A stretch of 64,000 bases of DNA. Source: Novosphingobium sp. CECT 9465 (GTDB lineage: Bacteria > Pseudomonadota > Alphaproteobacteria > Sphingomonadales > Sphingomonadaceae). The stretch is taken from NCBI RefSeq assembly GCF_920987055.1, contig NZ_CAKLBX010000001.1:3458501-3522500 (forward strand), in the 5' to 3' direction. This document shows positions 7,611 through 19,865 of the stretch, one piece after another (the stretch's first letter is position 1; every line of letters starts with the position of its first letter). Made by a program: the position numbers and the translations under genes. Below the pieces are notes generated by a model. The model saw only the letters and a list, made by a program, of their open reading frames with translations, had not been told where the DNA came from and did no database searches.

Positions 7611-8033
7611 ATGCGTCCGGCTTCCATCCAGTGGTTCGAGCGGATTTACTTTGCAACGCTCGCCATCGGGCTGATCAACCTGCTGATCCATTACGGCACC
7701 CTGAGCGAAGTATTGGGCGGTAGCGGTCAGACGATGGGTATTGTGCTGATCAGCTTCCTTGCTGGTATCGCGATCTCATTGGTATTCTGGTATCTCGTCG
7801 CACGCCGTGCCAGCACCATCGCCAAATGGTTTCTGGTCGTCCTCGTGGTGATCGGCCTCATCGGGTTACCCGGCGGCTTTGCGATGACCGAGACGCTGGG
7901 CATCGCTTACGTTGGCATCGGCGCGCTTTCCACGCTGCTGCAGGCCATCGCCACCGGACTGTTGTTCACGCCAGAATCGCGCCGCTGGTTCGCCAGCAAG
8001 GGTGCACCAGCCGGACCCGAAACCTTCGAATAG
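7611..8033 (+). CDS. Small integral membrane protein, unknown function
   Basis: 140 residues with four predicted transmembrane segments (roughly 13-30, 43-63, 72-92 and 100-122), short loops and a soluble C-terminal tail. The ATG at 7611 is preceded by ACAGGGG at a suitable distance; longer in-frame versions beginning near 6873 lie inside nadC and are rejected. I recognise no family beyond a conserved hypothetical membrane protein. It sits between nadC and an RNase T2 gene and its stop is one base from the next start, suggesting co-transcription. Confidence 0.7.
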   Translation: MRPASIQWFERIYFATLAIGLINLLIHYGTLSEVLGGSGQTMGIVLISFLAGIAISLVFWYLVARRASTIAKWFLVVLVVIGLIGLPGGFAMTETLGIAYVGIGALSTLLQAIATGLLFTPESRRWFASKGAPAGPETFE

Positions 8034-8034
8034 C

Positions 8035-8736
8035 ATGATGCGCACGGTAATTGCCTGTGTCCTGGCGGTCGGCGCCACCCCCGCCATCGCCCAGGGGTGG
8101 CAATGCCGGGTGCCGCCCCAAATCTCCGTACCGCCCCTGCCCAAACCGGACGCCCCGCCGCGCGTGGTGCCGACGACCGGCTATACCCTCGCGCTGAGCT
8201 GGTCTCCAGAGTTCTGCCGTACCCGCAAGGCCGATCCCGCGCATGCCACGCAATGTTCGGGATCGATGGGGCGCTTCGGTTTCGTACTGCACGGGCTTTG
8301 GCCCGAAGGCAAGGGCGGGGCCTATCCCCAATGGTGCCCGGTGCGGCGCGCGCCAGATGCGCAGACGCTGCGAGAAAACATGTGCGCCACGCCATCTGCC
8401 GATCTGCTGGTCCATGAATGGGCCAAGCACGGCAGTTGCATGACGCGCGATCCCGCAACCTATTTCGACAAGGGCCGCGCGCTGTTCCAGGCGATGCAGT
8501 TTCCCGATATGGCCCGGCTTTCCCGGCAGGAGGGCCTTGATGCAGGGATGGTACGGCAAGCCATGGTCACTGCCAACCCGCGCCTGAAGCGCGATATGAT
8601 CAGGCTTCTGCTGGGCCGTGACGGCTGGCTGCGTGAAATCCATGTGTGCCATGGGCGCACCCTGAAGCCCGCGCGGTGCCCGCAGGGCACTGGCCCTGCC
8701 GATAGCGTTCCTGTCAGGATCTGGCGCAGTTTCTGA
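8035..8736 (+). CDS. Ribonuclease T2 family protein, secreted
   Basis: 233 residues from ATG 8035 (a second ATG follows at once). A Sec signal peptide ends near AIAQG (about residue 19). Both catalytic signatures are intact: CAS1 as GFVLHGLWPE (His near 86) and CAS2 as VHEWAKHGSC (about 127-136). Six or more cysteines match the disulfide-rich fold. T2 enzymes cleave single-stranded RNA by a 2',3'-cyclic phosphate intermediate; bacterial ones (RNase I type) are periplasmic and scavenge RNA. The preceding membrane-protein stop is one base away. Confidence 0.9.
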   Translation: MMRTVIACVLAVGATPAIAQGWQCRVPPQISVPPLPKPDAPPRVVPTTGYTLALSWSPEFCRTRKADPAHATQCSGSMGRFGFVLHGLWPEGKGGAYPQWCPVRRAPDAQTLRENMCATPSADLLVHEWAKHGSCMTRDPATYFDKGRALFQAMQFPDMARLSRQEGLDAGMVRQAMVTANPRLKRDMIRLLLGRDGWLREIHVCHGRTLKPARCPQGTGPADSVPVRIWRSF

Positions 8737-10127: not shown

Positions 10128-11045
10128 ATGCCAGCGAATGCGTGGTGGGCCGTCGCACGGTCTGAAGAGATTACCGCGACCAAGCCGATCAATGTCGATA
10201 TTGGAGATCAGCCGATAGTGCTGTGGCGCGACAATGGTGTTGTCCGCGCGCTGGAGGATCGCTGCCCTCATCGCCGCGCGCCGCTTTCGCTGGGTTGCGT
10301 GCTGGGCAGCGGCAAGATTCAATGCGGCTATCACGGCTGGACCTTTGATGGGAAGGACGGCCAGCTGGTCGATATCCCCAACCTCAAGAGCGACCGCAAA
10401 TTCCCGCCCGTCTATCGCGCCCGCGCCTTTGCGGTGGCGGAAAGCGGTGGCTTTGTTCGCGTGAACCTTGACGCCAAGGCAGCAGCACCTGCGCCTCTGG
10501 CCGAAACCCTGCCGCTGGCAGGCACCGAGAATGTCGCTCTGGGCCACGAACACTTCATCAATGCCCTGTTCGACAATCCCGCACTGGTCATCGCCATCCG
10601 CGGCATCAAGTTCACGCCATATCTCATGGCCGAACTGGTCGAACAGGATGGCCGCCTCGTGCTTGAACGGTCATGCCAGTGGTCGACGCCGAGCTGGCCC
10701 GCTCCGTTCATCTCTGATTTTCCCGTGACTCTGCGTATCTCGACCGATGCGATAACCGGCGAAAGCGAGCTGTTGCTGCGCGACGATGCCTTCATGCCGC
10801 TGTTGCGCGCCACCATTGCGCCGGTTCCAGCTGCGCGCGGCGTCACGCAGGTTCGCTGGCGGGCAAAGCTGGAGGCCGGGCGTCGCAGCCTTGCCGCGAA
10901 AGCCATGGCACTGGGCGCACCGTTCCGCGTCCTGCCGACGGTGGACGGTGCCGAACTTCGCGTCACCAAACCATCTGCTTCCATCCACGCGGCTGATTTG
11001 CGCCGCGAAATTGCCAACCGCGCCGACAGCGCCGTCGCTGCCTGA
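10128..11045 (+). CDS. Rieske [2Fe-2S] protein of the ring-hydroxylating oxygenase family, without visible catalytic iron motif
   Basis: 305 residues. The N-terminal Rieske domain is intact: C46-x-H48 in CPHRRAPLSLG and C66-x2-H69 in CGYHGWTFDG, as in VanA/KshA-type oxygenases. The C-terminal 200 residues resemble the oxygenase catalytic fold, but the usual D-x2-H-x4-H motif is absent; the equivalent place reads GHEHFINALFDNP. It is followed after 19 bases by a gene with the opposite pattern (iron motif kept, Rieske ligands lost). I infer an electron-transfer subunit of a split oxygenase. The start ATG at 10128 follows GGGAGAAAG by 11 bases. Confidence 0.8.
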   Translation: MPANAWWAVARSEEITATKPINVDIGDQPIVLWRDNGVVRALEDRCPHRRAPLSLGCVLGSGKIQCGYHGWTFDGKDGQLVDIPNLKSDRKFPPVYRARAFAVAESGGFVRVNLDAKAAAPAPLAETLPLAGTENVALGHEHFINALFDNPALVIAIRGIKFTPYLMAELVEQDGRLVLERSCQWSTPSWPAPFISDFPVTLRISTDAITGESELLLRDDAFMPLLRATIAPVPAARGVTQVRWRAKLEAGRRSLAAKAMALGAPFRVLPTVDGAELRVTKPSASIHAADLRREIANRADSAVAA

Positions 11046-11064
11046 TCTGGAAAAGGAGATCGCA

Positions 11065-12126
11065 ATGCTCGATATCAATGACAGTGCGCCGACCCTCGAC
11101 TACGAGGATCCGATTTCCTCCGATCCGCGCACGTTTGCGGCAAAGGTCAATTCCTGGGTTCCGCACGACATCGTGCTCAAGGATGCCTGGTTTCCGCTTG
11201 CCCACAGCTTCGCGGTGGAAGCAAAGCCTGTCCGTCGTGCGGTCTATTCGCAGCCCTATTTCCTGTGGCGGGAAAACGGCCTTGCAGTTGCTTCGGAATT
11301 TCATCCTGCCGAAGGGCTGCAGGGGGCAAAAACCGCATTTTCCGATGCCGCCGGACGCTATCCGGTGATCGAGAAGTATGGCTATGTCTGGGGCTGGTTC
11401 GGCAATCCCGCCAATGCCGCCCCGGAACATGTGCCAAGCATCCCCTACCTGCCTGAAGACGGCGGCCTGCCCCTGCACATGCTGGGCACGGTGCGGTTCG
11501 ATTGCTGCGCCCCGCTAAGCCTCGAAAACCTGATCGATCTCACGCATGCCGATTTTCTTCATGCCGATGTCGTCGGCGACGAGAAGATGGACAAGGAAAC
11601 GGTCGAGGTGTTTCACGACAGCGAAACCATCACCATGGTCCGTACCTGCGTGAACAAGTCGGTCGCGCCGGTGATGAAACTGTTCGGCGGCGTGAAGGCC
11701 GATGTCCAGCAGGTCCGTCAGGTGATCCGCATTTACCTGCGCAGCCACGCCGCCATTGCCTATGGCCGGTTCAGCCCCGGTGATAACGTGCAGTTGTTCC
11801 ACCCGTGCGTACCCGAAACGCGCGACAGGACCCGGCTCGACTATGCGATGAACACGAGCAACGTGAAGAAGAGCAATCCCTTCCGCTACGTGATGCCCAA
11901 GGCCAGCTACAAGGTTTCGCGGCAGGACAGTTCGATGACCAGCCCGCAAAGCCCGCGCTACATGCACAGCGAACCGCGCAAGGACCTGCATTCGCCACTG
12001 GATGAAGCAGGACAGAAATATCGTGTGCTGATGCTGGCACTGGCCGAACGTCAGGCGCGCGGCGATTTTGCCTATCGCGACAATGTCAGCACGGATTGCA
12101 GCGAAATCATCGGGTATCAGAAATAA
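11065..12126 (+). CDS. Rieske-oxygenase catalytic subunit lacking the Rieske cluster ligands
   Basis: 353 residues from ATG 11065, preceded by AAAAGGAGA. The protein aligns in outline with single-component ring-hydroxylating oxygenases: DAWFPLAHSF and YFLWRENG at the N-terminus, then IEKYGYVWGWFGNP. The two loops that normally hold C-x-H and C-x2-H are missing between about residues 65 and 105. The mononuclear iron motif is present as D158-x2-H161-x4-H166 in NLIDLTHADFLH. Caffeine-degradation NdmC is a known precedent for a Rieske-less oxygenase needing a partner cluster. The adjacent upstream gene is the natural partner. It overlaps the next gene (TAATG). Confidence 0.8.
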   Translation: MLDINDSAPTLDYEDPISSDPRTFAAKVNSWVPHDIVLKDAWFPLAHSFAVEAKPVRRAVYSQPYFLWRENGLAVASEFHPAEGLQGAKTAFSDAAGRYPVIEKYGYVWGWFGNPANAAPEHVPSIPYLPEDGGLPLHMLGTVRFDCCAPLSLENLIDLTHADFLHADVVGDEKMDKETVEVFHDSETITMVRTCVNKSVAPVMKLFGGVKADVQQVRQVIRIYLRSHAAIAYGRFSPGDNVQLFHPCVPETRDRTRLDYAMNTSNVKKSNPFRYVMPKASYKVSRQDSSMTSPQSPRYMHSEPRKDLHSPLDEAGQKYRVLMLALAERQARGDFAYRDNVSTDCSEIIGYQK

Positions 12127-13184
12127 TGACCAGCCTATTGAATGCAACCGGCGGCGAGCGTCGCTGGTGGGGCGTCATGCCCGTGCTTCCCGCGCCGGTC
12201 ATGGGCGGTATTGCCAAACAGATGGAGGCCGTAGGCTTCGAGGGATGCTTTTCCTTGCAGATCTACGGTCCTCCGTTCGTGCCGATGGCGGCAGTCGGTG
12301 CGATGACCGACAAGCTGAAGGTATCGACCGGTATTGCCGTGGCGGGGACCCGCAGTCCGGTCGAGACCGCATTTGCCGCGATGGAAACCGACACGATCAC
12401 CCAGGGCCGCTTCATCCTCGGCTTGGGGACCTCGCTGCACAGCGCGGTGTGCGGTATCTACGGCGAACCCAAGCGCAAGCTGCTGACGCATCTGCGCGAA
12501 GTCGTGAAGGTCGTCCGCTATGTAAACGCCAACGCGCACAAGGGGATGGAGCCGATTCACGGCGAATACTTCAACGCCGAATGGACCGAGATGATGATGA
12601 CCGCACCTCCGGTGCGCGAACGCATTCCGATCTGGATCGCCGCACTGAAGGACAAGCTGACCAGCCTCGCGCTTGAAATCAGCGATGGCCTGATGGTCCA
12701 TGCGCTGTGGACGGTTGATTACACCGTCCAGAAAAAGGCGTTCATCGAGGCTGAACTGGCCCGTTTCGGCCGCCAGCGCAGCGACGTGGAAGTCAACGCC
12801 TGGCCCTGGATCGCGATCAACGACGACAAGCAGCAAGCCATCGACGACAGTCGCGCAACCGTTGCCGGTTATATCGGTTACAAGGAATACGAGCCGTTCT
12901 TCGACGCGATCGGGTTCGGTGATCTGGCCCGTTCATGCCAGCTGGCGGCGGGCGAACATGGCGATGTTTCCAGCGTCATCAAGAATGTCAGCGACGAGGT
13001 CGTCCAGGCCTTCGTCAAGTGCGGGTCGGTGGACGAAGTTCTCGAACAGATCGAGCCGTTCTGGACGGTGGTGGATTCGCTGTGCCCGATGACGCCGTAC
13101 CGCAATCTCAGCCAGGAAAAGCTGATGACCTATAACGAAGGTCTCTACCGGATGGTTGCCGAGGCCAAGCGCCGGGCCGCCTGA
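12126..13184 (+). CDS. LLM-class (luciferase-like) flavin-dependent oxidoreductase
   Basis: 352 residues. TIM-barrel luciferase-like fold with hallmark stretches KVSTGIAVAGTRSPVETA, ITQGRFILGLGTS, the HGEYF motif and RIPIWIAALKDK. Members use reduced FMN or F420 for monooxygenation or dehydrogenation; which cofactor is used here is not visible. The ATG at 12126 shares its A with the stop of the Rieske-less oxygenase gene, so the three genes from 10128 are one transcription unit. A strong hairpin follows its stop. Confidence 0.85.
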   Translation: MTSLLNATGGERRWWGVMPVLPAPVMGGIAKQMEAVGFEGCFSLQIYGPPFVPMAAVGAMTDKLKVSTGIAVAGTRSPVETAFAAMETDTITQGRFILGLGTSLHSAVCGIYGEPKRKLLTHLREVVKVVRYVNANAHKGMEPIHGEYFNAEWTEMMMTAPPVRERIPIWIAALKDKLTSLALEISDGLMVHALWTVDYTVQKKAFIEAELARFGRQRSDVEVNAWPWIAINDDKQQAIDDSRATVAGYIGYKEYEPFFDAIGFGDLARSCQLAAGEHGDVSSVIKNVSDEVVQAFVKCGSVDEVLEQIEPFWTVVDSLCPMTPYRNLSQEKLMTYNEGLYRMVAEAKRRAA

Positions 13185-13254: not shown

Positions 13255-14904
13255 TCATAAGCTTGCGATTGCCTTCCCGGCGATATAGCCGGTCACCATG
13301 GCGGGACCGACGTTGCAACCGTGAGCAGGCGATTTGCCCTGCCAGATCGAGTTTGCATCCAGTCCGGCCGCCCACAATCCGGGGATCGGCTGGCCATCTT
13401 CACCGCGGACCCGGCACTTTGCATCGATCTTGACGCCGACGGTAGTCGAGCCATCGCCGGGGAAAATCTGGATGGCATAATACGGACCATCGCCAAGCGG
13501 GCCAAAGCATGGATTTGGCGCATGGCCCGGATCGCCGATTTCCTGATCGATCAGCGTATCACCCTTTCCGAATGCGGTATCCTTGCCGGTAGCCGCATCG
13601 GCATTCACCCTGGCTGCCGTGGCCACCAACCCGGCGGCGTTGACACCAATCCGCGCAGCCAGTTCCTCCAGGGTTTTCCCGCTCTTCAGATAGCCGCTTG
13701 CCAGAAGCTCCTTGAGCCGTCCGCCACCCGGCAGAACCAGCCCCATGCCATACTTCTTCACGTTCTTCGCGCTGGCAATGATATGTGCCGGTACGGTGCC
13801 GGTGGCGTGCATGGCGCTGACGAAATGCTGGCTCGCCTCGTTGGCGAAACGCGCACCCTGGTTGTTCACGGCGATGCAGCCGGGCTTCGACATGTCGATC
13901 AGGTGGGCGTAACGCTCTACATAGCCATTGGCGAGCGTGTTGGTCGAAACCACCGCCCAGACCGCATTGACATGATTGTCCGCGCCCATCGCCGCGCCAA
14001 CCGCCTGACCTGCGGCGATTCCATCGCCGGTATTGGTATAGGGCAGGATCGAAATGTGCTGGTCGGGATAAGGGATGAACGCCTTGCGCAATTCTGCACT
14101 GGCGGAGAACCCTCCCGATGCCAGCACGACGCCGCGCGCAGCCTTCAGGTCGGTGCTCTTTCCATCAATCGTGGCGCGAACCCCGACGACCTTGCCGTCC
14201 TCTACCAGCAAGCGCTCGACCGGCGCATTCTCGCGCAATTCCACCCCGGCATCGATGGCCGACTTGAACAGGCGTCCGGCCAGCGCCGTGCCCATGGTCA
14301 ACCGCGAACCGCGTCCGAGCTTGCGCTTGTCGAGTGCGAACCGGACCGCGATCTTGGCCATGTGCCACAGTGCGCCCGGCGCCGGCAGACGCGCGATATA
14401 GGGCAAATCGAACAGATCGATCATCATGCCACCCGGCGCGTTGAACTCCTCGCGCGGCTTCGACAGGCGCGAAAAATCAGCCCCCAGGGTCTTGCCGTCG
14501 AACTCCGCCGGTGCGAGCAGCCGCCCTTCATGCGCCGATCCCGGTACTTCTGGATACCAGTCCGAGGACGGCGGCGAGAGCAGGAAGTGAACCGAGGTGT
14601 TTGCGCCAAGCCATGCCACCATTTCGGGACCGACCGCCATGTACGCTTCGATGATCTCGCGCTCCGCGCGATTGCCGACGACGGCAAGAGCGTAGTCGCG
14701 CGCCTTTTCCACGCTATCGTCGATGCCCGCGGCGATGGCCTGCGGGCTTCCGGGAATCCACACGCCGCCACCGGAAATTGCGGTGGTCCCGCCGAAATGG
14801 CCAGCCTTTTCCAGCAGCACGACCTTCAGCCCGGACTTCGCAGCGGTCACCGCCGCAGTCAGGCCGGCAGCTCCCGATCCCATGACAATCACATCGTAAT
14901 TCAT
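13255..14904 (-). CDS. KstD-like FAD-dependent dehydrogenase (FAD_binding_2 family)
   Basis: 549 residues. Rossmann FAD motif GSGAAGLTAA at 9-18, followed by VVLLEKAGHFGGTTAISGG, typical of the fumarate reductase/3-ketosteroid-delta1-dehydrogenase group. Near the C-terminus PYYAIQIFPGDG and GLWAAGLDANSIW are conserved, but the catalytic tail usually seen in KstD (Y-x-G-P-G before the GPAM helix) is SPAHGCNVGPAM here. The enzyme probably introduces a C=C bond into a cyclic ketone or acts as a related dehydrogenase; a true steroid substrate is uncertain. It lies in the island but is transcribed opposite to the oxygenases. Confidence 0.8.
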   Translation of the reverse strand: MNYDVIVMGSGAAGLTAAVTAAKSGLKVVLLEKAGHFGGTTAISGGGVWIPGSPQAIAAGIDDSVEKARDYALAVVGNRAEREIIEAYMAVGPEMVAWLGANTSVHFLLSPPSSDWYPEVPGSAHEGRLLAPAEFDGKTLGADFSRLSKPREEFNAPGGMMIDLFDLPYIARLPAPGALWHMAKIAVRFALDKRKLGRGSRLTMGTALAGRLFKSAIDAGVELRENAPVERLLVEDGKVVGVRATIDGKSTDLKAARGVVLASGGFSASAELRKAFIPYPDQHISILPYTNTGDGIAAGQAVGAAMGADNHVNAVWAVVSTNTLANGYVERYAHLIDMSKPGCIAVNNQGARFANEASQHFVSAMHATGTVPAHIIASAKNVKKYGMGLVLPGGGRLKELLASGYLKSGKTLEELAARIGVNAAGLVATAARVNADAATGKDTAFGKGDTLIDQEIGDPGHAPNPCFGPLGDGPYYAIQIFPGDGSTTVGVKIDAKCRVRGEDGQPIPGLWAAGLDANSIWQGKSPAHGCNVGPAMVTGYIAGKAIASL

Positions 14905-16601: not shown

Positions 16602-16708
16602 GGCGAAACTCCGTATGCTCGTGACGCCTCAACTTACATGTTGAACACCTTCCATACAATATGTATATCTCGAATCAGATAGAAAAGAACCCCCGAGGAG
16701 AAGCTGCC
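16602..16708. promoter_or_regulatory. Divergent promoter region, ferredoxin versus ring hydroxylase
   Basis: 107 bases between two divergent starts. It contains the 13-base palindrome ATACA-ATA-TGTAT at 16654-16666, a plausible operator half-way between the genes, and GAGGAGAAG at 16695-16703 as ribosome-binding site for the alpha subunit. No clear -35/-10 pair could be fixed. Confidence 0.5.
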
Positions 16709-18097
16709 ATGCTCCAGAAAACCAGCCTGGTATTGCGTGATGGAACGTCGCTCGACGATCTCGTCAAACGTGATACGAATGAAGTGTCTTTGCGGGTAAT
16801 GACCGACGAAGAGCTTTATCATCATGAAATGGAACGGATTTTCGCCAAGACTTGGCTGCTTCTCGGCCACGAGAGCGAGATTCCCGACGTCGGTGATTTC
16901 ATCGTGCGCGACATGGCCGAAGACAATGTCATCGTCGCTCGCGGACAGGACGGCGACGTTCATGTCTCGCTGAATGTGTGCCCGCATCGCGGCATGCGTG
17001 TGTGCCTGGGTGAGGCTGGCAACAAGCGTATTCACCAGTGCATCTACCACGGCTGGGCGTTCCGCCCGAACGGCGATTTCATCGGTGCGCCGGTCGAAAA
17101 AGAGAAGATGCACGGCAACGATGTCGACAAGTCCACGCTCGGCCTGAAAAAGGCGCGGGTCTACCTTTACGGCGGCCTGATCTTCGCAACGTGGAATGTG
17201 GATGGCCCCTCGTTCGAAGAATACCTAGGCGACATCAAGTTCTACCTCGACCAGCTGTTCTGCCGCACGGACAACGGCCTGGAACTGCTTGGCCCGCCGC
17301 AGCGCTTCGTGCTGCCCTGCAACTGGAAGGTTCCGGGCGAACAGTCCGGCTCGGACGGCTTCCACACGTTGACGCTCCATCGCTCGCTGATGGAAGGTGG
17401 CGTGATGGGCGGCACGGCCGAAACGATCTACGATCAGGCTCCCGGCATGTATGGTGTCGATGTTTCCTGCAAGCAGGGCCACTCGCTGCGCTGCCTTGAA
17501 GCTGAAAAGACATTCAAGATGTTTGCCGACGTGCCGTTCGAAGGCAAGTCGACAGAAGAGCGCCTCAATCTGCTGACGCCTCCCGGCATCACCAAGGACA
17601 TGATTCCGCAGCTGTTCAAGAACCTCAGTGAAGACCAGGTTCGCCAGCTTGCGACAATTCCGCCGCAGGTTGGCGGCATGTTCCCGAACGTGCTGATCGC
17701 GTTCATCTTCGCACCGCGCACCGATGGCGGTTCGTCGGGTGCGCTGACGCTGCACACCTACATGCCCAAAGGCCCGGACAAGGTGGAGTTCATCAACTAC
17801 ATCTTCGCCGAAAAGGACGCGCCGGAACAGATGAAGCGCGACATGCTTCAGAATTCGATCTGGAACACTGGCACTTCGGGCGTGATCGAACAGGACGACG
17901 CCGACGTATGGCCCGTGATCATGCGCAATGCGCGTGGCGCAGTGAGCAAGGACATCACCCTGAAGTATCAGGCCCTGCACGGCCATGAACGGCCTGAAGG
18001 CTGGGTGGGTGAAGGCCTGCTTTATCCCGGCTTCACCAAGGATGACACGCAGTGGAACTGGTGGATGGCCTATTACGATCTGATGAGCGAAGCCTGA
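16709..18097 (+). CDS. Aromatic-ring-hydroxylating oxygenase, alpha (large) subunit
   Basis: 462 residues. Rieske ligands C91-x-H93 (CPHRGMRVCLG) and C111-x2-H114 (CIYHGWAF); mononuclear iron ligands D216-x2-H219-x4-H224 in SDGFHTLTLH. The bridging Asp between clusters is therefore present, while the preceding Asn common in naphthalene and biphenyl enzymes is replaced (GEQSGSD). Length and order match alpha subunits of two-subunit dioxygenases. The beta subunit follows after 14 bases and a flavin reductase and SDR follow that, giving a dioxygenase-like operon that would make and oxidise a dihydrodiol or hydroxyl product. Substrate unknown. The start at 16709 is set by GAGGAGAAG. Confidence 0.92.
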   Translation: MLQKTSLVLRDGTSLDDLVKRDTNEVSLRVMTDEELYHHEMERIFAKTWLLLGHESEIPDVGDFIVRDMAEDNVIVARGQDGDVHVSLNVCPHRGMRVCLGEAGNKRIHQCIYHGWAFRPNGDFIGAPVEKEKMHGNDVDKSTLGLKKARVYLYGGLIFATWNVDGPSFEEYLGDIKFYLDQLFCRTDNGLELLGPPQRFVLPCNWKVPGEQSGSDGFHTLTLHRSLMEGGVMGGTAETIYDQAPGMYGVDVSCKQGHSLRCLEAEKTFKMFADVPFEGKSTEERLNLLTPPGITKDMIPQLFKNLSEDQVRQLATIPPQVGGMFPNVLIAFIFAPRTDGGSSGALTLHTYMPKGPDKVEFINYIFAEKDAPEQMKRDMLQNSIWNTGTSGVIEQDDADVWPVIMRNARGAVSKDITLKYQALHGHERPEGWVGEGLLYPGFTKDDTQWNWWMAYYDLMSEA

Positions 18098-18111
18098 GCG
18101 AGGGACAAGAC

Positions 18112-18693
18112 ATGACCTGGATCACCAAATCGACCGCCGCTCCAGACGCCACCACCATCATGCGCGGCCTTACCGCAAAGGTCCGCGTTCCGCTGGGTTC
18201 GGAAATCTACAACCGCATCCTCGAAACGCTTTACGACGAGGCTGCCCTTCTCGACGAGCGCCGGTTCGACGATTGGGTAGCGATGCTTGCGCAGGACATC
18301 ATCTATCAGGCGCCAATCCGGCTGACGCGTACCGGTGCACATCGTGACCGCGATGTGATGCGGACGATGTTCCACTTCGACGAGGATTACGGTTCCTTGC
18401 TGATGCGCACCGGCCGTATGCAAAAGAGCGCCTGGGCCGAAGACCCGCCCTCGCGCTGCCGCCGCTTCGTGACCAACGTGCGTATCGGCGAAACCGAAGC
18501 GGCAGGCGAATACGAAGTTGTCAGCTATCTGTTCCTTGAGCGCAGCCGTGGCGACAATCCCCACAACGAGCAGATGACCGCCGAACGCCGCGACATATGG
18601 CGCGATGTTGACGGTATCTACAAGCTTGCCCGGCGTGAGATCATCGTCGATCAGGCGGTGCTCGGCATGTCCAACTTCGCCGTGTTCCTCTGA
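18112..18693 (+). CDS. Aromatic-ring-hydroxylating oxygenase, beta (small) subunit
   Basis: 193 residues, NTF2-like fold without metal ligands. The pattern ETLYDEAALLDERRFDDWVAML, the FVTNVRI strand and C-terminal YKLARREIIVDQAVL are typical of ring-hydroxylase beta chains, which stabilise the alpha3beta3 assembly. The ATG at 18112 follows GAGGGACAAGAC. It lies 14 bases after alpha and 5 bases before the reductase gene. Confidence 0.9.
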   Translation: MTWITKSTAAPDATTIMRGLTAKVRVPLGSEIYNRILETLYDEAALLDERRFDDWVAMLAQDIIYQAPIRLTRTGAHRDRDVMRTMFHFDEDYGSLLMRTGRMQKSAWAEDPPSRCRRFVTNVRIGETEAAGEYEVVSYLFLERSRGDNPHNEQMTAERRDIWRDVDGIYKLARREIIVDQAVLGMSNFAVFL

Positions 18694-18698
18694 TCGCT

Positions 18699-19865
18699 AT
18701 GACGGGCCAAGCTGCCCCAACCATCGTCGTCGTCGGAAGCGGTCTTGCCGGCTTCGGGGTCCTGCGCGAGTTGCGCAGGCTTTCCCCCGAAGCCCGGCTG
18801 GTATTGGTGACCGGCGAATCCGGCCACTTCTATTCCAAGCCTGCGCTGTCCACGGCCCTGGCCAAAGGCAAGAACGCGGCAACCCTGGTGACAACGCCAG
18901 CGGAAAAGATGATTGCCAACCTCAGGCTCGATGCGCGCATTGGCCGTGAAGCCGAGGCGATCGATCGTAACGCAAAGGCTCTGCTGACCACCGGTGGTCC
19001 CATCCCTTACGATGCGCTGATACTGGCAACAGGTGCCGAGCCTGTTGTCCCGCCGATCGGTGGCGAGGCCGCGCACCGCGCCATAGCCGTCAACCAGCTC
19101 GATCATTACGACAGGTTTCGCCGTGAACTGCCCGAAGGCGGGCGCGTTCTGGTGATCGGATCAGGTCTGGTTGGCACTGAATTTGCCAATGATCTGGTTT
19201 CGAGCGGATACAATGCGACAGTCGTCGACCTGATGCCGCAGCCGCTGGCGCAACTCGTGCCTGCGCAAGTGGGCGAACGGGTCCGCGATGCTCTGGCTGA
19301 CAAGGGCGTTGACTGGCACCTTGGCCGCAGGGTCGAGACGATCGACTATCGGCAAGGAACGCCGGGCTATGTCGCCCGTCTCGACGATGGCACCGTGATT
19401 GAATCAGACCTTGTCCTGTCGGCGGTGGGGTTACGTCCAAAGGTGGATCTGGCGCGCGAGGCCGGTCTTGATGTCGGACGTGGCATCCGCGTCGATGAAT
19501 TTGGCCGGACAAGCGATCCTTCCATTTTCGCCATCGGAGACTGTGCGGAATACCCCCACGGGCTATCGGCCTATGTCACGCCGATCATGGCCGCAGCGCG
19601 GGCCATTGCGCCCGGTGCGCTGGGAACACCGACAGCGATGCGTTTTCCGCCGCTTTCGGTTCAGGTCAAGACAACGCTCTATCCGATCAATCTGCTGCCG
19701 CCTGGTGCCGCAACGGTCGGAGAATGGCGCACGATCGAGGACGACGAGACTGGCGGGAAATATGTTTTCGTCGATCAGGCAAACGTGGTTCGCGGTTATG
19801 TGCTGACGTGTGACAAGTGCGAAGAACGCATGGAAATGGATAAGATCGTGGGAGAAACTGCATGA
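18699..19865 (+). CDS. FAD-dependent rubredoxin/ferredoxin reductase
   Basis: 388 residues. Two nucleotide-binding motifs are visible: GSGLAGFG at about 11-18 for FAD and GSGLVGTEF near 150 for NAD(P)H; AIGDCAEY closes the FAD site. Overall it resembles rubredoxin reductase (RubB/NorW group), with the SKPALSTALAKGK motif after the FAD loop. No rubredoxin domain is fused, but a C-terminal C-D-K-C pair is present. In this operon it presumably passes electrons to the ring hydroxylase, perhaps through the ferredoxin at 16389. The ATGA overlap with the SDR gene indicates translational coupling. Confidence 0.88.
   Translation: MTGQAAPTIVVVGSGLAGFGVLRELRRLSPEARLVLVTGESGHFYSKPALSTALAKGKNAATLVTTPAEKMIANLRLDARIGREAEAIDRNAKALLTTGGPIPYDALILATGAEPVVPPIGGEAAHRAIAVNQLDHYDRFRRELPEGGRVLVIGSGLVGTEFANDLVSSGYNATVVDLMPQPLAQLVPAQVGERVRDALADKGVDWHLGRRVETIDYRQGTPGYVARLDDGTVIESDLVLSAVGLRPKVDLAREAGLDVGRGIRVDEFGRTSDPSIFAIGDCAEYPHGLSAYVTPIMAAARAIAPGALGTPTAMRFPPLSVQVKTTLYPINLLPPGAATVGEWRTIEDDETGGKYVFVDQANVVRGYVLTCDKCEERMEMDKIVGETA

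Follow-up and report, generated by a model that had tools for sequence, protein, structure and literature searches.

A conserved bacterial gene pair predicted to encode a Rieske oxygenase with its two metal sites on separate polypeptides

Gene organization and motif content of the locus

The window, a 64,000 nucleotide stretch of Novosphingobium sp. CECT 9465 (contig NZ_CAKLBX010000001.1, positions 3,458,501 to 3,522,500), contains two adjacent oxygenase-like genes whose products we refer to as P1 and P2 (Table 1). An initial annotation made from the sequence alone had described P1 as keeping the four Rieske ligands C46/H48/C66/H69 and lacking D-x2-H-x4-H, and P2, which starts 19 bases past P1, as keeping D158/H161/H166 and lacking C-x-H...C-x2-H; both descriptions hold, and the residue numbers it gave are correct. 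Pfam searches at E<=1 matched P1 to PF00355 (4e-24), with PF13806 below its cut-off, and to no catalytic domain; by Pfam P1 shows a Rieske domain only, and no reductase domain. PF19112 (VanA_C; 8e-33) is the sole match to P2 at the same threshold, at which no Rieske domain is matched in P2 and the beta-subunit family PF00866 is matched in neither protein. The aspartate D288 of P2, not mentioned in the initial annotation, falls in the alignment on the acidic iron ligand (ED) that ordinary members conserve and has no counterpart in P1, and the 2-His-1-carboxylate iron site with its bridging Asp is complete in P2 (D158, H161, H166, D288).

Table 1. Positions of the P1-P2 gene pair, its functional residues and neighbouring genes in the window
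Feature	Position	Strand	Basis
P1, Rieske-only oxygenase-like protein, 305 aa	10128..11045	+	ORF; PF00355 sole family above cut-off
Rieske domain of P1, residues 6-91	10143..10400	+	Pfam range; four ligands invariant in 70/70 rows
P1 ligand codons C46, H48, C66, H69	10263-10265, 10269-10271, 10323-10325, 10332-10334	+	Rieske domain
C-terminal half of P1, residues 112-305, iron-less, probably a degenerate catalytic domain	10461..11042	+	Alignments; D149 in 70/70 rows
D149 of P1, aligned with the bridging Asp	10572-10574	+	Iron ligands not kept beside D149
Intergenic gap from P1 stop to P2 ATG, 19 bases	11046..11064	+	Sequence
Likely ribosome-binding site AAAAGGAG ahead of the P2 start	11051-11058	+	Read from sequence
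P2, mononuclear-iron-only oxygenase-like protein, 353 aa	11065..12126	+	PF19112 VanA_C alone at E<=1
Pseudo-Rieske half of P2, about residues 38-130, without both cluster loops	11176..11454	+	Motif absence and profile homology
Bridging Asp and two iron-binding His of P2 (D158-x2-H161-x4-H166)	11536..11562	+	Invariant in 70/70 rows
Third iron ligand of P2 (D288), part of the facial triad	11926..11928	+	Aligned with the conserved D of canonical oxygenases; 70/70 rows
LLM-class flavin-dependent oxidoreductase	12126..13184	+	PF00296; start and P2 stop overlap by 1 base (TAATG)
3-Ketosteroid-dehydrogenase-like flavoprotein	13255-14904		Below NCBIfam cut-offs
Second, ordinary Rieske system: alpha, beta and reductase	16661-19865	+	Rieske and Ring_hydroxyl_A (alpha); PF00866 (beta); rubredoxin-binding domain (reductase)
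Ordinary alpha/beta pair of the second system	16661-18693	+	Pfam
Cytochrome P450	22825-24234	+	

Both metal sites were found together neither in P1 nor in P2, whether by Pfam, in the 70 pairs described below or in 120 listed relatives of each protein, and because the sites lie on separate polypeptides neither protein can be filed singly as an alpha chain, and the pair only as a heteromeric variant. Among the best 120 of 1449 relatives of P1 (8000 candidates scored) the Rieske motif is present in 120/120 and D-x2-H-x4-H in 0/120, and among the best 120 of 237 relatives of P2 the figures are reversed, with D-x2-H-x4-H in 120/120 and the Rieske motif in 0/120; this split among the listed relatives of each protein places the complementary motif pattern beyond chance. 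Where the source annotations name the products, some give P1 as 'ferredoxin subunit' and P2 as 'large terminal subunit', and the pair illustrates how annotation may conceal two-gene oxygenases.

The LLM-class flavin oxidoreductase gene is probably in the same operon as P1 and P2; a member of its cluster directly follows the pair, in the same orientation, in 36/72 sources, the window included, and an SDR cluster occupies that position in 16/72. In 36 of 73 clustered sources the surroundings of the pair include a plant-type [2Fe-2S] ferredoxin-like gene; these genes fall into two sequence clusters (30 and 6), the larger checked by Pfam on one member (Fer2, locus L001) and the smaller judged by sequence; the L001 ferredoxin has five matches in the genome of the window and none inside the window itself. 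A sulfotransferase-family protein is encoded beside that ferredoxin gene (L001:3237-4517), and its cluster is found near the pair in 28 loci. Because of the neighbouring LLM-class or SDR, ferredoxin and 3-ketosteroid-dehydrogenase-like genes, one might guess at a hydrophobic substrate, perhaps terpenoid- or steroid-like. The available portion of PMC10710418 names no P1-P2-like pair in the resin-acid (dit) cluster of Paraburkholderia xenovorans LB400 (locus L073), and those of PMC8540908 and PMC8399759 name none in the bile-salt cluster of Sphingobium Chol11. The enzyme of an auxin study, in the part of PMC12633357 at hand, is an ordinary alpha3beta3 one and was set aside. The window also contains the second, ordinary Rieske system and the cytochrome P450 gene listed in Table 1, and a P450 of the same cluster lies near the pair in LB400.

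Conservation and distribution of the pair

Scanning of the named genomes with P2 peptides gave 75 loci, of which three (L070, L074 and L075) are ordinary oxygenases with both motifs in a single ORF; of the 72 relevant loci that remain, 70 have P2 immediately preceded by P1 in the same orientation. One exception is locus L012, where the P2 match begins at base 103 of the contig, and the other is L072 of Pseudomonas mandelii 29 (7950-8252), a P1-less C-terminal remnant of P2 of 101 residues that is 93% identical to the P2 of L046 and is apparently a deletion relic. Counted within the 70 is a locus from a Paraburkholderia MAG (L067:8001-9024) in which the P2 match runs on in another frame, either through a frame change within the gene or through an assembly error. 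The record titles of the loci name Novosphingobium, Sphingobium, Croceicoccus, Acidocella, Pseudomonas, Halopseudomonas, Porticoccaceae, Oxalobacteraceae, Polaromonas, Paraburkholderia xenovorans LB400 and one Verrucomicrobiaceae MAG, giving the pair a range from the Sphingomonadales to Pseudomonas, betaproteobacteria and one Verrucomicrobia-labelled MAG. Two pairs per genome are present in Pseudomonas fluorescens PS662 (L049 and L050), Croceicoccus hydrothermalis (L011 and L014), Sphingobium fontiphilum (L036 and L040), a Sphingomonadaceae MAG (L018 and L042) and one further genome (G211).

The ligands are conserved across this range. An alignment of 70 rows, comprising 69 loci and the window with L067 left out, has C46, H48, C66, H69 and D149 of P1 and E154, N155, D158, H161, H166 and D288 of P2 invariant in 70/70 rows. 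Regular expressions applied to the 70 pairs find P2 with D-x2-H-x4-H and no Rieske motif in 70/70, and P1 with the Rieske motif and no D-x2-H-x4-H in 68/70; in the two P1 exceptions (L017 and L034) the D-x2-H-x4-H lies slightly upstream and ends at the position of H140, off the canonical site in the alignment.

Since the 75 loci were found through P2 peptides they are unable to reveal P1 occurring alone, a matter that only the genome scans with a P1 profile address. The order sample contained matches to the P2 profile in 8/396 genomes (E<=1e-60) and to the P1 profile in the identical 8 (E<=1e-50), the window's own included, with 9/9 P1-P2 pairs adjacent on one strand; in the phylum sample each profile matched 1/398 genomes (E<=1e-40 for P2, E<=1e-30 for P1), in both cases the window's own. 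These figures derive from samples centred, for P1, on the genome of the window, with the five best candidates per genome scored in most rows, such that weak or second copies may escape. Profile searches with a count of adjacent pairs had been proposed in the initial annotation, which regarded homologues commonly occurring alone as evidence against a two-chain enzyme; the order (396) and phylum (398) samples searched contained no such pattern. The P1-P2 pair is a conserved unit.

Origin and divergence of the two proteins

Comparison of profiles with those of ordinary VanA-type oxygenases matched the N-terminal half of P1 to the canonical Rieske domain (prob 100), the N-terminal half of P2 to the canonical full-length profile (prob 99.0, E 4.8e-18) and the C-terminal half of P2 to the catalytic domain (prob 98.5). 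The N-terminal half of P2 is, by this profile homology, recognizable as a Rieske domain minus its loops. For the C-terminal half of P1, local profile comparison with catalytic domains was null (prob 0.2, not above 11 unrelated control families), and its description as a degenerate catalytic domain is thus founded on global alignment and on the stretch leading to D149. In the global profile alignment as in MAFFT, D149 coincides with the bridging Asp and both His positions carry other residues, and the P1 profile aligns residues 3-150 with residues 6-157 of the dicamba monooxygenase DdmC (3gb4), whose residue 157 is D. The P1 and P2 family profiles, compared directly, matched weakly (prob 37.9). 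P1 is probably an alpha chain in which the catalytic half has decayed past easy recognition.

Phylogenetic analysis places P1 and P2 in one clade each (13 rows each, support 100/100), and the two jointly outside 19 ordinary members with 80/55 support, a placement that joins long branches and drew a warning from the tool; with either P1 or P2 left out, the remaining one joins the canonical tree at the same branch. The pairwise distances of P1 and P2 are correlated across 39 non-redundant loci (r=0.954; 0/2000 permutations as high, maximum 0.34), a correlation that partly reflects shared species history. Median dN/dS values, taken from 685 to 1245 of 2415 pairs with dS of 0.2-1.5, the pairs not being mutually independent, are 0.165 and 0.364 for the N- and C-terminal halves of P1 and 0.293 and 0.194 for those of P2. 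Purifying selection acts on all four halves (median dN/dS <0.4), and in both proteins the metal-bearing half is the tighter.

The most likely history, as we infer it from these comparisons, would be one in which a complete alpha-chain gene was duplicated, the two copies reciprocally lost one metal site each, and both were inherited jointly thereafter. P2 would have retained the Rieske fold without its loops, and P1 probably some of the catalytic fold but not its iron ligands. Fission of a single oxygenase gene was rejected, since by profile comparison P2 still has a Rieske-derived N-terminal half, and so was a sequencing error or pseudogene, given that the pairs are conserved, the ligands invariant and the genes under purifying selection.

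The predicted enzyme and its relation to known systems

We consider it likely that P1 and P2 together make up one heteromeric Rieske non-heme iron oxygenase, of which both are obligate subunits, a prediction made from sequence. P1 would carry the [2Fe-2S] Rieske cluster and would be reduced by a reductase and probably a plant-type [2Fe-2S] ferredoxin; P2 would carry the mononuclear iron (H161, H166, D288) and bind O2 and substrate, and by analogy with ordinary oxygenases the electron would cross the P1-P2 interface via the bridging Asp D158 of P2 to the iron. In ordinary Rieske oxygenases each subunit is both electron donor and electron acceptor, so that one metal site is hard to alter without the other. 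A natural enzyme with its metal sites on different genes would be one in which each site could be altered or titrated separately, and the pair would show a symmetric enzyme turning into an obligate heteromer through complementary loss.

Several other readings of the pair deserve consideration. P1 could be a Rieske ferredoxin of large size, dedicated to P2 and binding it transiently, much as the Rieske domain of NdmD probably serves NdmC, with no stable mixed oxygenase being formed. Rieske ferredoxins do appear beside alpha chains among the PDB matches of P1, local profile search does not detect a catalytic domain in its C-terminal half, and NdmC/D, in the available part of PMC4408171, provides a known case of a Rieske cluster carried by a separate chain. 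We nevertheless regard this reading as unlikely. At 305 aa P1 is far from the PDB-matched ferredoxins of 104-121 aa, or the 197 aa of that of methanesulfonate monooxygenase, and its size and alignable C-terminal half of about 195 residues do not fit the single Rieske domain of about 100-120 residues of a Rieske-type ferredoxin; moreover, that half is under purifying selection (median dN/dS 0.36) and can be aligned from the Sphingomonadales to Pseudomonas, and the best PDB match of P1 is an oxygenase alpha chain, aligned to residue 150 and so far beyond the Rieske domain.

That P1 and P2 are independent enzymes, or that one is a decaying pseudogene adjacent by accident, is highly improbable and close to refuted by the adjacency in 70/72 loci, the invariant ligands and the median dN/dS below 0.4 in all four halves, even though the P1-less remnant in L072 and the frame change in L067 can be cited in its favour. 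The least probable reading is one in which P1 bears an alternative metal site in its C-terminal half and both chains are catalytic: a handful of residues there do not vary among 25 rows (D149, P151, W185, R237, T240 and W244) and H140 is kept in 59/70, but over those 25 rows there is no invariant His, Cys or second acidic residue.

A hetero-oligomer in which electrons pass from one chain to the other is the best-supported reading, given the adjacency, co-occurrence, correlated divergence and complementary conservation of halves, and in this the initial annotation, which had proposed a hetero-oligomer with electron transfer between chains, anticipated it. Its further proposal that such transfer replaces the usual neighbour-subunit route is doubtful, since ordinary trimers already pass the electron to a neighbour: CntA, in the accessible portion of PMC7948474, separates its metal sites by 44 A in one chain and by 12.2 A across neighbouring chains, with a bridging carboxylate as the link. 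Because the electron already crosses chains in ordinary trimers, the likely change is that this route has turned obligatorily heteromeric; its two ends are split in the pair, with the cluster on P1 and D158 and the iron on P2. Since a closed head-to-tail trimer is unable to alternate two subunit types, the expected assembly would be a trimer of dimers or a ring with an even number of members. We would give an even chance to the broader proposal that this bacterial lineage consists of obligate heteromeric Rieske oxygenases derived from two reciprocally disabled alpha chains, assembled as trimers of P1P2 dimers or as even-membered rings in place of the closed alpha3 ring, with electrons passing from P1 to P2 only and with the dead halves serving as scaffold or control surfaces.

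Among known enzymes, those of the VanA/DdmC type are similar to the pair in that both P1 and P2 find their best PDB match in DdmC, and P2 its sole Pfam match in VanA_C. Canonical members of this type, unlike P1 and P2, have both sites in one chain, as is so in 19/22 comparison loci (other VanA_C loci, L077-L098, from 12 genomes, with L086 and L094 being the same gene). In the three that remain, L088 and L097 lie <=0.5 kb from a contig start and the ORF of L089 starts inside the Rieske domain. L088 has a Rieske-motif ORF (570-1244) near the VanA_C stretch at the contig start, which may be another split pair or merely a neighbouring gene. The alpha3beta3 ring-hydroxylating oxygenases are also encoded by two genes, but P1 and P2 do not include the PF00866 beta subunit. 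Among the best-ranked papers of a literature search, a weak sample with subscription journals mostly outside it, no bacterial pair like P1-P2 is described.

A closer parallel is the chlorophyllide a oxygenase of Micromonas pusilla (MpCAO), in which an oxygenase likewise consists of two polypeptide chains with complementary metal sites. Kunugi reportedly found in 2013 that the two MpCAO chains divide the Rieske and iron motifs between them and that neither chain can be dispensed with. MpCAO is a eukaryotic pigment enzyme, whereas P1 and P2 are bacterial and their genes adjacent on the chromosome; and since P2 matches VanA_C alone at E<=1, its domain is not of the PaO/CAO C-terminal type, the Pfam family to which the MpCAO-type catalytic domain belongs. 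In the available part of PMC9615114 the two chains of MpCAO are suggested to form a heterodimer, perhaps a trimer of dimers.

The precedent named in the initial annotation was NdmC, which holds as a case of a Rieske-less chain with its cluster elsewhere, although it is looser than the two-chain MpCAO, which went unmentioned. As far as the accessible text of PMC4408171 goes, NdmC forms the caffeine N7-demethylase complex with NdmD and NdmE and, as P2 would, relies as an oxygenase chain without a Rieske cluster on the cluster of another protein; in that system the extra Rieske domain sits in one protein with the reductase, and a GST-like protein (NdmE) is required as well, whereas P1 is without a reductase domain. 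No GST-like (NdmE-type) partner was found in the part of the neighbours that was scanned, and a system of the NdmC type was rejected on the absence of a reductase fusion from P1 by Pfam. The comparison is consistent with, and weakly suggests, a new bacterial form of two-chain oxygenase in the P1-P2 pair, with MpCAO and NdmC as its precedents.
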